From a virus, in the IMG/VR virus record IMGVR_UViG_3300021792_000018, positions 1-23,384 of that record: a stretch of 23,384 bases of DNA, one strand, 5' to 3'. Both the position numbers and the translations under genes were made by a program. Numbering within the stretch: position 1 is the first letter of the stretch; each line of letters opens with the position of its first letter. A model generated the notes under the pieces. The model saw nothing but the letters and a program-made list of their open reading frames with translations, ran no database searches and had not been told where the DNA came from. Below are positions 1,284 to 18,951 of this stretch, in pieces.

Positions 1284-1290
1284 AGTGAAT

Positions 1291-1384
1291 ACCTCTGAGA
1301 TGTAGAGATTATCACCACCAACTTAATGCGACTTGAATTGGTGGCAGATTAGACAGGATTCGCATTACCAGTCTCAGAGCTACT
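1291..1384 (-). promoter_or_regulatory. Antirepressor leader with RBS-sequestering pairing
   Basis: In the minus-strand transcript CTCTGAGA (about 1382-1375) is perfectly complementary to TCTCAGAG (about 1302-1295), which includes the ribosome binding site of the antirepressor. Between them sit a 7-bp hairpin (CCACCAA/TTGGTGG, 1315-1321 and 1338-1344) and the short leader ORF. Further upstream are a UUCG-loop hairpin (1388-1399) and a CCAGT/ACTGG hairpin (1368-1386) that would compete with the long-range pairing. The layout suggests translational control of the antirepressor coupled to leader ORF translation. Confidence 0.5.
1312..1365 (-). CDS. Short leader ORF (icd-like position), 17 codons
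   Basis: ATG at 1365-1363 reads MRILSNLPPIQVALSWW and stops with TGA at 1314-1312, 28 bases before the antirepressor ATG. The predicted pairing sites of the C4 RNA (1346-1354 and 1356-1365) cover its start codon and first codons. In P1, C4 blocks translation of the small icd ORF, which is coupled to ant; this ORF sits where such a coupling ORF is expected. A weak GAG lies about 8 bases upstream of the ATG. That it is translated is inference. Confidence 0.4.
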   Translation of the reverse strand: MRILSNLPPIQVALSWW

Positions 1385-1458
1385 GGCGCACCGAAGTGCT
1401 CCTACCTAACCTGCCATAACAGGCACTTTTTACAGATTGTAAAAAGCTTAGGCAAAAT

Positions 1459-1549
1459 AAAACCGCTTATGCGGCTTTGCGCTCTGAAACGTTATTGGAT
1501 GCGAAACCAAATCACAGATTTTGCTGTGACTTGAAAAGCCTAATCCAAT
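1459..1549 (-). ncRNA. C4-type antisense RNA upstream of the antirepressor
   Basis: The minus-strand RNA has an outer stem ATTGGAT/ATCCAAT (1543-1549 with 1494-1500) enclosing a 6-bp hairpin TCACAG/CTGTGA (1524-1529 with 1512-1517). It ends in an intrinsic terminator (8-bp stem with AUAA loop, 1459-1478, then U-rich 1454-1458). Single-stranded segments beside the inner hairpin are complementary to the leader downstream: the segment at 1499-1508 pairs with 1356-1365 (9 of 10), and the segment at 1538-1546 pairs with 1346-1354 (7 Watson-Crick plus 2 G-U). The two targets are adjacent and in the order needed for both loops to bind together. A further GCCTAA match lies at 1448-1453. This is the architecture of the C4 antisense RNA family of P1/P22-like immunity loci. 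The promoter is not obvious. Confidence 0.7.
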
Positions 1550-1642
1550 TTTTTCAAAAGTGCAACAACCTTAGCGGTATCTTATTTGCTATGCCTGCTA
1601 GAAAATATGATTGTTTAAAGTGGTTTTAAACATTCCTAAAAT

Positions 1643-2508: not shown

Positions 2509-2837
2509 TTAACTAGATTTATTACGCCTTTTAAGCGCTTCCTCTTCAAAAGTAGTCTCAACCTCAACTACATCTTCATGCGGGCAAACATCACTTGGCT
2601 CAATCCAATGATCTTCTTTCACTCTGCCATTATGATAAAAAGCCATCAGACCACCAATTGCCTGCTCAATACGACGGCCAGTAAAAAGCGAGCCTCGTTT
2701 ATCACGAAAGGCCCGCCATATTTGTAACTCAGCGTTATCTATGTTTCGCTTGGCTTCACTGATTGTTCGTCCACCAATTCCGTTGATGACGAGTTCACAC
2801 CAGAGTTCGTTGTCTCTGAACTCTTCGTCCGTGACTT
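2509..2837 (-). CDS. Tail assembly chaperone, T-type domain made by -1 frameshift
   Basis: A -1-frame open reading frame of 108 codons from the slippery site to TAA at 2511-2509 has no good start of its own. Its frame is closed just upstream (TAA at 2850-2848), so it opens exactly at the heptamer G-GGA-AAG (2841-2835) of the upstream chaperone gene. That heptamer is identical to the one lambda uses to make gpG-T. The decoded segment reads as a real protein: acidic start (TDEEFRDNELWCELVING), then AELQIWRAFRDKRG and RRIEQAIGGLMAFYHNG, resembling the W-x-x-[FY] and helical pattern of tail assembly protein T, and an acidic tail. Shifted translation from 3269 would give a fusion of about 253 residues (149 plus 108 codons if the upstream start 3281 is used). 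In lambda, gpG and gpG-T load the tape measure protein and recruit tail tube subunits. Confidence 0.75.
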
Positions 2838-3269
2838 TCCCGAAAAATTATTGACACCATCTGCAACTTTATAAAGCGCCTCAATAAAGATCGGATCTGA
2901 ATCATAAACATCAGCAATGGTTTCAAAGAAAGCTTTACCATTGACATCTTCACAGACTGATCCAAGCAACTGAGCTGCACGCAACAAACGACTATCAACA
3001 GATTCGAGTTTAGAATTTTCAAAATTCTGATAATCAATGTCCCACTTATAAGCTTTTGCTGTAGCTTCAATATCTTTATAGCTCAAACGCTTAATAAAGA
3101 CTTGACCTGAAAGCTCAACCATTTCACCCAGACTTAAATCAGCTTTACCTGTATTTTCTTGGATAAATGCTAGATTTTCGTCTGTGACTTCAACCAACCA
3201 AGTCACTGTACGCTCAGTCGGTGCGGCAACTTTGGTCACTTTTTTCAGTGATTTCAATTTCAAGGTCAT
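2739..3269 (-). CDS. Tail assembly chaperone, G-type
   Basis: A 176-residue protein from ATG 3269. That start overlaps the tail tube stop as ATGA and has GGAAAG four bases upstream; an ATG at 3281 would add four residues but has a poorer ribosome site. The body (MTLKLKSLKKVTKV to about residue 140) is mixed alpha/beta and helical, with ALYKVADGVNNFSGKS at the slippery site. The last 30 residues are a low-complexity Ser/Thr tail (TTNSGVNSSSTELVDEQS), typical of the dispensable end of an unshifted G protein. Its position directly after the major tail protein and the frameshift into a T-like frame identify it by gene order and mechanism; I could not compare it with a family model. In the late operon it should be much more abundant than the shifted form. 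Confidence 0.75.
   Translation of the reverse strand: MTLKLKSLKKVTKVAAPTERTVTWLVEVTDENLAFIQENTGKADLSLGEMVELSGQVFIKRLSYKDIEATAKAYKWDIDYQNFENSKLESVDSRLLRAAQLLGSVCEDVNGKAFFETIADVYDSDPIFIEALYKVADGVNNFSGKSRTKSSETTNSGVNSSSTELVDEQSVKPSET
2835..2841 (-). promoter_or_regulatory. Programmed -1 ribosomal frameshift site GGGAAAG
   Basis: In the zero frame the codons read TCG GGA AAG TCA, so the heptamer is G_GGA_AAG, the lambda G/T slippery sequence, in the correct phase. The -1 frame is open from here to 2509 and closed immediately upstream. Confidence 0.8.
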
Positions 3270-3742
3270 GGTACTTTCCATTCATCAATGATTTGAGATT
3301 GGCGACGTAAAGGCAAAGTATGGTTCACTAAAGAATTGGCTTCAGTAACAGGCTTTCCTTTGCGTAAAACAACAGTGGCATAAGACCAAGAACGAGTTTC
3401 AGGTAAAGTAACTACATTACCCGATACTGTTGGCACACCCGTACCATCAGAATAACCAGCGTAGATCCCAATTGGTTCTAATGAATTTGCAAATCCTAGC
3501 AATAAAAGATGTGTGGCATTGGTTGGATCAGTATCAATTTTTACAGATCCATCCCCAGGCTTTCCAAGAATAAAATCACTGGTTTCAACATCATCATTAT
3601 CTAAACAATTGTTGTCATACTCGTTGTAATTTTCATCACCCCAATCAAACGCTTTGATACAGCTTAATTTTGTTAATGTTGGCGTTTCGCCATGCAGTGC
3701 CCAAAATTCAGTACCTTTTGAAACAATACCTTTTTTAGCCAT
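3266..3742 (-). CDS. Major tail tube protein
   Basis: 158 residues from ATG 3742. Order in the operon (after DUF3168-type tail completion protein, before the chaperone pair) and sequence style fit siphoviral tail tube subunits: a short N-terminal arm (MAKKGIVSKGTEFWAL), a loop region rich in D/N (WGDENYNEYDNNCLDNDD), then repeated beta strands such as DFILGKPGDGSVKIDTDPTNATHLLLLGF and the C-terminal SWSYATVVLRKGKPVTEANS. Tail tube subunits stack as hexameric rings on the tape measure. It is shorter than lambda gpV because it lacks an added Ig-like domain. Its stop overlaps the start of the chaperone (ATGA). A terminator lies just upstream, between it and the preceding gene. Confidence 0.75.
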   Translation of the reverse strand: MAKKGIVSKGTEFWALHGETPTLTKLSCIKAFDWGDENYNEYDNNCLDNDDVETSDFILGKPGDGSVKIDTDPTNATHLLLLGFANSLEPIGIYAGYSDGTGVPTVSGNVVTLPETRSWSYATVVLRKGKPVTEANSLVNHTLPLRRQSQIIDEWKVP

Positions 3743-5809: not shown

Positions 5810-7055
5810 CTTTACCCCCTTTGCTATTAGCAAATGGATCATCTTTAGCATCACGTTTAGACAATGCTTCAAGACTAAAGTTTTGCTGTTGCATATAGAC
5901 TGAATCACCACCAATGACAGGTTTAAGATTGAACTTAATCCGTGCCTCATTTGGGGCAATAACCCCACCCTTAACGCCTTTGGTGTAATAATCAACTTTA
6001 GACGCTGAATCCATACGAATCAGATTTTCAACATCCAGAAAGACTTCATAACCCATTGCTTTTAAGCCAAAGCTATCATCTAAAAGATTTTCAATTGCTT
6101 CTGTTGGACTCTGTAGACAGTCTCCAAAATGTAAAAGATTTACATCCTCTACTTTTAAACCTTGTGGGATTGAGCCAAATCCAATTTTGAACGGGTGAAC
6201 ATGAAAAGCAGAACAACAAACCTCTGAACTCATCTTATGTTGTTCAATCAATTGAGCATCAGCAGCCGCAATACTGATAGGCATATACTTCATATCACTA
6301 CCAAGAATTGCTGTACCCCCCACATTTTGACCAGAATAGTTCTCTTTCCAACGCTTGCTAATCATTGCAGCATCTTCATCAGAAATACGACCTGGGGCTG
6401 TTAAAATTCCACTTGGTCGGCTCATATTGTTAAAGAACGTTGCACCATGCTTTTGAATTGCAAGACCATTTCCCGCAGCCAAACCACACGCAACAATGGG
6501 ACTTAACCCCACCAAGGGGTGATACATACAATTCCAACGGTCATGGATGATTTCAGATGCAGGTAAAATAATTGGAGCTGATTGCTGAGCCAACAAATCA
6601 ACACTGACCTGATAAAAAACCTCACCTTTATCACTGACTAAAGGCTTCACTAAATCAGGATTAAGCACAATTAATTGTTCAACACTACCAAATGCATTTC
6701 GCAACTTGAGAACGTATGTATTGCCATGTCGACACTTTGAAATGACCCAAAATTCTAAAAACTGTTGCATCGTTTGAAAGTGGTTTGGCTTTTCCAAAAA
6801 CTTGAGTTTCTCATCTTTGGTTTTGACCCAAATATCACCATCTTTCTTTTTCAACTCTAAAGGCATCTTGCCAATGTCTTTAGAAATTAATGAAATACAG
6901 GAAAATACAGCGTGAAAAGAGAGAATATCTTCTTTTTTAAGCTCAATATTTCTCTGCCAAGCACCCATAAATGGCTCAAATATGCGAGTCCAACCACCTG
7001 AACCTTGAACTGGAGACATGGACTTTTTACGAAAGAACCCACTAAATACGCCCAT
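5790..7055 (-). CDS. Portal protein, HK97 family
   Basis: 421 residues from ATG 7055, next to the previous stop. Recognisable landmarks of the HK97-type portal family are the N-terminal AVFSCISLISKDIGKMPLELKKKDGD segment (about residues 49-75), the wing/stem region with LNPDLVKPLVSDKGEVFYQV, the conserved IIHDRWNCMYHPLVGLSPI, LAAGNGLAIQKHGATFFNNMSRPSGILTAPG, and the C-terminal EQHKMSSEVCCSAFHVHPFKIGF with a final Asn/Arg-rich NEARIKFNLKPV helix. Twelve copies form the channel through which the terminase moves DNA. Length is normal for the family. The gene is followed by connector genes and preceded by a small gene instead of the usual direct capsid order. Confidence 0.93.
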   Translation of the reverse strand: MGVFSGFFRKKSMSPVQGSGGWTRIFEPFMGAWQRNIELKKEDILSFHAVFSCISLISKDIGKMPLELKKKDGDIWVKTKDEKLKFLEKPNHFQTMQQFLEFWVISKCRHGNTYVLKLRNAFGSVEQLIVLNPDLVKPLVSDKGEVFYQVSVDLLAQQSAPIILPASEIIHDRWNCMYHPLVGLSPIVACGLAAGNGLAIQKHGATFFNNMSRPSGILTAPGRISDEDAAMISKRWKENYSGQNVGGTAILGSDMKYMPISIAAADAQLIEQHKMSSEVCCSAFHVHPFKIGFGSIPQGLKVEDVNLLHFGDCLQSPTEAIENLLDDSFGLKAMGYEVFLDVENLIRMDSASKVDYYTKGVKGGVIAPNEARIKFNLKPVIGGDSVYMQQQNFSLEALSKRDAKDDPFANSKGGKDAANSE

Positions 7056-13179: not shown

Positions 13180-13480
13180 TGAATTACCTCATATTGATTA
13201 GCCCATCCTTTCGGACTACTCTCGCGGGGCTTGACGCTACTCCCTTACTTTAAAAAACCACTGGATAGGCACAGTATTTTTTAATTTTCTGGTTTCGGAT
13301 TCCATTTATGGCGGGGCATCACTCCCAATTCAGATTGTCACTTGCCTGCTTATCCTATCCATGCTCGATGAACTGCATGGGTTGTACACACTTTCGTGGT
13401 GTCTCGACGCTTACTTGAACAGCCTTTAGCTAATCAGCATGCATTTTCAAATGGGGGCAAACATAATCTAGCTCCAAAAA
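13180..13480 (-). ncRNA. Structured leader RNA of the late operon (candidate)
   Basis: 300 bases without a gene. Read on the minus strand it folds into a chain of hairpins: a GNRA-type hairpin CAC-GAAA-GTG (13398-13389), CCATGC/GCATGG (13375-13380 with 13359-13364), CCAT-AA-ATGG (about 13303-13312), TCC-GAAA-GGA (13215-13206) closed by AGCCC/GGGCT (13227-13231 with 13200-13204), and a long-range pairing TGGATAGG/CCTATCCA (13354-13361 with 13262-13269). The long-range pairing shares bases with the CCATGC hairpin, so the two exclude each other. It lies between a terminator and the first late gene. I know no RNA family that fits; an antitermination or attenuation leader is inferred from position. 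Confidence 0.5.
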
Positions 13481-18309: not shown

Positions 18310-18951
18310 ATGGAATCTATTGGTATTCGTATTCGAAAACTGAGAAAAGATAAAAAATTAACTCAAAAAGATTTGGCGAAAATCTTAGGTATCTCTGATG
18401 CAGCAATTGTTCACTGGGAGAAAGATGTAAACATACCTAAACTAGAACATTTAAATATTTTAGCACCAACATTGAATACAACTATAGACTATATAATGTA
18501 TGGAAAATCAGACACATCTGATAAAGTTGTAGACTTCAGACCTATTACAAGGATGCTTCCAGTTTTGACTTATGTCCAATGCGGTTTAATGACTAACGTA
18601 CGTTCAATTTCACCTCATGAAATTGAAAAATGGCTACCAGCACCACCTGAAACAGGCAAAAATAGTTTTTATTTGATTGCTCAAGGTATCAGTAACGCAC
18701 CCGAATTTAATGACGGAGATTTCATATGTATCGATCCAGATGTACCATTAGAGTATGTTCAAACTGGCGAAATGATCGTTGTTATTCAAGATGATGAAGC
18801 TACATTTAAAGCTTTAGTAAGAGAACATAAAACCATATATCTCAAAGCATTAAATCCAAACTTTCAGCCAAATATTATACCACTCAAAGAGAATTCTATT
18901 TATAGAGGCAAGTACACTGGTAAATTTACACCTAGCAAAAAATTCTTATAA
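18310..18951 (+). CDS. CI-type prophage repressor (HTH + S24 peptidase)
   Basis: 213 residues from ATG 18310 (AAGG 8 bases upstream). Residues 5-65 are a XRE helix-turn-helix (IRIRKLRKDKKLTQKDLAKILGISDAAIVHWEKD...IPKLEHLNILAPTLNTTIDYIMYG). The C-terminal half is a LexA/UmuD-like S24 domain: the self-cleavage site is Cys91-Gly92 in TYVQCGLM (Cys-Gly as in UmuD instead of Ala-Gly), the nucleophile is probably Ser128 in GISNAPEFNDGD, and the general base is Lys167 in EATFKALV. It should keep the prophage dormant and be cleaved with RecA after DNA damage. The active-site motif GISN differs from the usual G-[DN]-S-M. Confidence 0.92.
   Translation: MESIGIRIRKLRKDKKLTQKDLAKILGISDAAIVHWEKDVNIPKLEHLNILAPTLNTTIDYIMYGKSDTSDKVVDFRPITRMLPVLTYVQCGLMTNVRSISPHEIEKWLPAPPETGKNSFYLIAQGISNAPEFNDGDFICIDPDVPLEYVQTGEMIVVIQDDEATFKALVREHKTIYLKALNPNFQPNIIPLKENSIYRGKYTGKFTPSKKFL

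Follow-up and report, generated by a model that had tools for sequence, protein, structure and literature searches.

An intact-looking C4 antisense RNA switch predicted to control a Bro-N antirepressor gene in an Acinetobacter-type phage

Organization of the locus

The window, by which we mean the whole 23,384-base virus sequence that was analysed, carries minus-strand head and tail genes and also encodes an S24-type repressor and an integrase; the phage is of Acinetobacter type. A cassette consisting of a leader RNA, a C4 antisense RNA and an antirepressor gene adjoins the tail genes. The main features are as follows, with (−) denoting the minus strand:

3266–3742, tail tube gene, neighbour of the cassette
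2739–3281, tail assembly chaperone gene, neighbour of the cassette
1645–1671 (−), intrinsic terminator closing the upstream genes; 12-pair stem (7 G–C), then a T-rich tail
1537–1565 (−), probable promoter, read from the sequence; −35 TTGCAC (1565–1560), 17 nt, −10 TAGGCT (1542–1537)
1456–1530 (−), isrK-like leader RNA with targets a1 and b1; RF01394, 50.1 bits against a cut-off of 50 (marginal)
1459–1478 (−), intrinsic terminator of the leader; 8-pair stem, then TTTTATTTT
1337–1421 (−), C4 antisense RNA; RF01695, 65.7 bits against a cut-off of 45, E = 6e-11
540–1283 (−), Bro-N antirepressor gene, 247 amino acids; PF02498, 49.4 bits, E = 7.2e-13
18310–18951, HTH and S24 repressor gene (CI-type), from a domain search

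An earlier note, made from the sequence alone, had proposed a C4 antisense RNA and antirepressor operon with a Bro-N antirepressor in a tail-gene setting, and these three points are borne out by the matches above. Because the strong terminator at 1671–1645 lies between the cassette and the upstream tail genes, the cassette would behave as an independently transcribed unit of the late region. Two minus-strand open reading frames (ORFs) between the tail genes and the cassette (1875–2429 and 1687–1866) had no PHROG match; the former also had no Pfam match and is overlain by a 69% DNA match to Acinetobacter phage R3177. Within the tail assembly chaperone gene, a slippery heptamer, GGGAAAG, is present on the minus strand at 2835–2841, where a −1 shift would lead into a 108-codon extension ending near 2509, as in the lambda G-GT frameshift. 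Further along the window, the Pseudomonadales-1 RNA (RF03046) matched the minus strand at 13201–13381 (73.8 bits, cut-off 68).

The product of the antirepressor gene also matched PHROG 5060 (anti-repressor Ant, E = 3.6e-32). Its C-terminal part (residues 106–247) is common to the window and its relatives at 85–87% identity, whereas the N-terminal domain is Bro-N in the window and P22_AR_N in the related locus L002. The antirepressors of the window, L002 and L006 thus share a C-terminal part of approximately 140 residues and differ in their N-terminal domains, a modular exchange. In other Acinetobacter-type loci, the gene at the equivalent position encodes P22_AR_N (L002), Bro-N (L104) or Rha (L134), or has no Pfam match. 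A wider protein search of genomes with the antirepressor returned one locus.

A C4 antisense RNA downstream of an isrK-like leader

The Rfam C4 model reads from 1421 to 1337, between the isrK-like leader and the antirepressor gene. The earlier note had instead placed C4 at 1459–1549, a region that is indeed predicted to be structured and to end in a terminator. However, 1456–1530 is the isrK-like target leader, meaning that regulator and target had been swapped; the covariance models led us to reject 1459–1549 as the regulator and C4 as its target. The minimum-energy fold of C4 (−35.7 kcal/mol, z = −3.85) consists of a long outer stem and two inner hairpins, and compensatory changes were found in 21 of its 27 predicted pairs across 16 relatives. 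Members of the C4 family repress in trans after RNase P has trimmed them to about 77 nt. By analogy with P1 c4, we predict a mature RNA from about 1415 to 1341, with the GG at 1415–1414 corresponding to the site where the mature P1 RNA begins. In this phage, the reading frame beginning with the AUG at the C4 5′ end is just three codons long. The Rfam model for sar RNA (RF00262) had no match in the window.

In the leader (fold z = −2.95), a1 is exposed in a hairpin loop and b1 directly precedes the terminator at 1478–1459. The leader also overlaps a match to the c4-a1b1 model (RF03163), whose 33.2 bits (E = 3.4e-6) fall short of the 46.7-bit cut-off. Judging from the position of the promoter, transcription probably starts at about 1530, where the isrK match has its 5′ end. 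The promoter is a weak match that was not reported by a consensus promoter scan; its boxes are kept in the close relatives L002, L003 and L015, and TTGACA-type boxes occupy the equivalent position in many relatives. A palindrome with 8-base arms, TGTTTAAAGTGGTTTTAAACA (1612–1632), precedes the predicted transcription start by approximately 85 bases; no clear counterpart to it was found in the cI region. Comparing the cI region with the operon promoter for a common operator gave A+T-rich partial matches only, and none was identified.

Two C4 segments match sites on both sides

Searching 1270–1700 for exact complements of the C4 loop region returned four sites only, two on each side of C4:

1372–1380 (−), C4 loop b′ (GCUCUGAGA)
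1359–1367 (−), C4 single-stranded segment a′ (UAAUGCGAA)
1499–1505 (−), target a1 (UUCGCAU), hairpin loop; exact a′ complement, covaries across relatives
1481–1487 (−), target b1 (UCAGAGC); exact b′ complement, changed with b′ and b2 in L002
1324–1331 (−), target a2 (UCGCAUUA); exact 8-nt a′ complement
1293–1300 (−), target b2 (UCUCAGAG); exact 8-nt b′ complement, overlaps the antirepressor Shine-Dalgarno sequence

The upstream sites pair over 7 nt each, with predicted duplex energies of −8.7 kcal/mol for a1 with a′ (1359–1365) and −17.3 kcal/mol for b1 with b′ (1374–1380). The downstream duplexes span 8 nt, at −10.1 kcal/mol for a2 with a′ (1360–1367) and −14.4 kcal/mol for b2 with b′ (1372–1379). 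The b2 site covers most of the Shine-Dalgarno sequence AGAGG (1292–1296) of the antirepressor gene, whose ATG lies at 1283. A looser motif (CGCAT, 5–30 nt, CAGAG) has three minus-strand occurrences, namely a1b1, a2b2 and a third at 6952–6986; its plus-strand occurrence falls inside C4.

Short complementary segments arranged in antiparallel order had been noticed before, and the exact complements confirm them. One of the two pairing sites then named, 1356–1365, contains a′, but the other, 1346–1354, forms the 3′ side of the outer stem of C4, and the a2 and b2 sites at the antirepressor Shine-Dalgarno sequence had been overlooked. The earlier note had also drawn attention to a 17-codon ORF ending just before the antirepressor gene. 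This ORF exists (ATG at 1365 to TGA at 1312, with 28 nt separating its stop from the start of the antirepressor gene), and it starts there because a′ reads AAUGCG. Its counterpart in L002 has 20 codons and a different end, and in loci with other a′ sequences the leader ORF is absent or unrelated. We therefore rejected it as a leader peptide or icd equivalent, since conservation among relatives is lacking. Between C4 and the antirepressor gene we found no icd-like ORF coupled to ant, and the antirepressor start directly follows b2.

C4 specificities covary with their flanking targets

A plain sequence profile search was of little use, returning only 10 C4 relatives because the C4 sequence varies too much; a covariance model was required. 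Using a purpose-built model, we obtained 149 C4 matches in the fetched loci, 143 of them distinct and nearly all from Acinetobacter. C4 was present in 101 out of 119 Acinetobacter genomes, with up to 26 copies per genome.

Across the 143 loci, stretches complementary over 7 nt or more to the loops of the same locus were found at a1 in 94%, b1 in 78%, a2 in 82% and b2 in 75%, compared with 4–9% for non-cognate loops and 0.4–3.1% for shuffled zones. When a and b were both required, own flanks matched at a1b1 in 111 loci (78%) and at a2b2 in 105 (73%). By contrast, only 483 (a1b1) and 527 (a2b2) of 20,306 cross pairs matched at both (2.4–2.6%). The loci are interrelated, and the search zones were set around positions from a first table; the non-cognate control uses identical zones and is thus a fair comparison, although the exact percentages vary with the zone limits and the 7-nt threshold. 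Cross-reactions at a2b2 join the 143 loci into 37 predicted specificity groups, and the window C4 matches only its own locus within this set.

In the closest relatives, L002, L003 and L015 (mean column identity 92%), a1 and a′ are unchanged with respect to the window and a2 is still complementary, whereas the b elements differ at all three sites (b1, b′ and b2), with b′ still complementary to both b1 and b2. Specificity has thus changed together at three separated places. A covariance-model match and covariation of the pairings, whose absence the earlier note had named among its possible refutations, were therefore both found, and all four C4 pairings are backed by natural covariation over many specificities. 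The same comparison yields a testable prediction as to which lysogens should be mutually immune at the C4 RNA level.

Under a strict terminator test, only 40 out of 143 loci had a terminator before C4, compared with 1 in the shuffles; the leader terminator is thus a feature of some of these loci.

Comparison with known C4 and isrK systems

The immI region of P1 (c4-icd-ant, RF01695) resembles the window in RNA family, in the order a1-b1-C4-a2-b2, in similar spacing and in its downstream antirepressor. The P1 record annotates a1, b1, c4, a2, b2, icd and ant1 in this order, and our complement search recovered the four sites. However, the window has no icd, and b2 lies on the antirepressor's own Shine-Dalgarno sequence; the antirepressor is Bro-N rather than Ant1; the leader matches isrK and is closed by an intrinsic terminator; and the cassette adjoins tail genes. 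Of the P1-like logic (C4, icd, ant) suggested previously, C4 and the antirepressor thus stand, whereas the icd equivalent does not. The likeness to P22 also drawn at the time is loose: sar (RF00262) of P22-type loci is likewise an antisense RNA at an antirepressor gene but belongs to a different RNA family, and it is sar, not C4, that adjoins the Bro-N antirepressor of Salmonella phage SPN3UB, as our match there shows.

The isrK-orf45-anrP region of Gifsy-1 (RF01394) shares with the window an isrK-like terminated leader, C4 and an antirepressor gene with b2 adjoining its Shine-Dalgarno sequence. There, isrK, c4-a1b1 and C4 all scored above cut-off, with C4 at 69 bits and within the described orf45 region. 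The window differs in a′/b′ specificity and has no equivalent of orf45. Gifsy-1 produces terminated IsrK and a processed RNA of approximately 80 nt, STnc1160, and IsrK in trans activates anrP translation about 140-fold (PMC4825925). Such trans activation of a downstream antirepressor by isrK has been shown only for Gifsy-1 (PMC4825925). IsrK might accordingly be read as a C4 decoy, but constitutive STnc1160/orf45, a C4-containing RNA, left the IsrK-dependent growth arrest unsuppressed (PMC4825925), which speaks against a simple version of this idea.

Pairing of C4 with Bro-N is not unique to this phage. In APSE-1, Vibrio phage 1F53_PE003 and Aaphi23, C4 lies directly upstream of a Bro-N antirepressor gene, as in the window but with other specificities, and it is absent from the annotated features of all three records. 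An isrK match precedes C4 in APSE-1 and 1F53_PE003; in Aaphi23 (L148), its place just upstream of C4 and the Bro-N antirepressor gene is taken by AaHKsRNA82 (RF02900, 1262–1342), which is named as an Aggregatibacter sRNA. The APSE-1 antirepressor gene sits among replication genes, whereas that of the window is beside tail genes.

Group 1 sRNAs of A. baumannii are likewise C4 RNAs with an upstream leader and apparent processing at a GG (PMC5320573). Their leader loop reads CUACAUU instead of the GCAAAAUC of the window, and the gene at b2 is usually an ORF of 12–45 codons instead of an antirepressor gene. The locus therefore links P1 C4, Salmonella IsrK and A. baumannii Group 1 sRNAs, bodies of work that are not joined in the cited literature, and would provide a clear-cut case of C4 control in which icd is lacking and the antirepressor's own ribosome-binding site is covered.

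A model for antirepressor control

We consider it highly probable (roughly 0.87) that the locus is a C4-type immunity operon in which C4 hides the antirepressor Shine-Dalgarno sequence and the leader may titrate C4. It looks like an intact C4 antirepressor switch, whose expression and function in the phage are predicted. Transcripts from the promoter near 1540–1565 would partly stop at the leader terminator, giving an isrK-like RNA that carries a1 and b1. Upon read-through, RNase P would presumably excise C4 from the transcript, and its a′ and b′ would pair with a2 and b2. As this hides the Shine-Dalgarno sequence, a lysogen would make no antirepressor, leaving the latter's presumed target, the CI-type repressor (18310–18951), active. 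Since a1 and b1 would bind the same C4 loops as a2 and b2, either in cis on the unprocessed transcript or in trans as the short leader RNA, the antirepressor could be released when a burst of leader RNA titrates C4. The weak promoter match, the isrK score barely above cut-off and the c4-a1b1 score below it weaken this explanation.

The scheme of the earlier note, in which an RNA at 1459–1549 is C4, pairs with 1346–1354 and 1356–1365 and controls the 17-codon ORF coupled to the antirepressor, is hardly tenable: the a1/a′ complementarity beneath it is real and the leader does have both structure and a terminator, but the C4 model matches 1337–1421, one proposed site lies in the C4 outer stem and the ORF is unconserved. 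More serious is the thought that C4 mainly promotes termination at or after the leader via a1 and b1, with the a2/b2 effect on translation secondary. P4 CI RNA is, by description and not by sequence, comparable to C4, being an antisense RNA that is excised from a leader transcript and flanked on each side by complementary sites, and it acts by transcription termination on replication genes (PMC4825925); the IsrK authors raised attenuation for Gifsy-1 by this analogy (PMC4825925). The position of b1 immediately before the leader terminator and the 14 out of 143 loci that have a1b1 without a2b2 would suit such a mechanism. However, b2 lies on the Shine-Dalgarno sequence in the window and a2b2 is kept in most relatives, and blocking a1 and b1 in the prediction brought no gain in leader terminator pairing, for which reason C4 binding as a direct terminator switch was rejected. 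Attenuation as the main mode of action thus seems unlikely to us.

We are similarly doubtful of self-regulation in cis, in which a′ and b′ would be occupied by a1 and b1 of the same unprocessed transcript, the fold would be opened by leader RNA acting in trans, and free C4 would be a by-product. In the unprocessed read-through transcript (1530–1270), a1:a′ and b1:b′ are predicted to pair at probabilities of 0.76–1.0, resembling the silent structure of Gifsy-1 isrK-orf45, where pairing of isrK with a downstream orf45 segment is backed by mutational analysis (PMC4825925). But the silent structure hides the orf45 start, for which the window has no equivalent, and the conserved, covarying a2 and b2 would be left unexplained. 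Finally, C4 might have been co-opted to regulate host mRNAs, as the authors of the A. baumannii study suggested for Group 1 sRNAs on the grounds of a′ variability (PMC5320573). This is very improbable for the window, whose C4 has intact targets of its own beside an intact antirepressor gene. In the Acinetobacter C4 RNAs generally, a′ and b′ vary with the RNA's own flanking sites, which does not fit retargeting to host genes, although these RNAs may have host targets in addition.

Chromosomal C4 units in Acinetobacter

Two leader classes separate in the Acinetobacter set. Loci with GCAAAAUC leaders mostly have an ORF of at least 46 codons at b2 (29 out of 33, antirepressors included), whereas 80 of the 88 loci with CUACAUU leaders have one of 12–45 codons. 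The Region 1 loop of the A. baumannii Group 1 sRNAs has the motif CACAUU/CUACAUU; these C4-like RNAs are expressed, with apparent processing at a GG motif (PMC5320573). A term search of two A. baumannii RNA interactome papers returned no mention of C4.

The high-copy units (L016–L144, up to 26 per genome) carry the CUACAUU leader, their own a1/b1 and usually a2/b2. In these units, b2 overlaps the Shine-Dalgarno sequence of an ORF of mostly 18–31 codons, and a TetR-like or lipoprotein gene often lies further on. The short ORFs possibly encode leader peptides or toxin-like peptides; the signal of selection on them was weak and mixed. As a tentative proposal, C4 in Acinetobacter could form a large self/non-self RNA code of dozens of mutually blind groups, with the terminated leader as a dedicated anti-C4 decoy. 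Chromosomal units would then be self-cognate modules silencing their own short ORF, in the manner of a type I toxin–antitoxin system or an anti-phage arsenal, rather than host-retargeted sRNAs.

A subclass of these units, 14 of the 143 loci, retains a1/b1 and has lost a2/b2; it includes L048, L054, L046, L068, L070–L072, L086, L101 and L102, and most of its members have a conserved 18-codon ORF with a TTG start after AAAAAGGAG.
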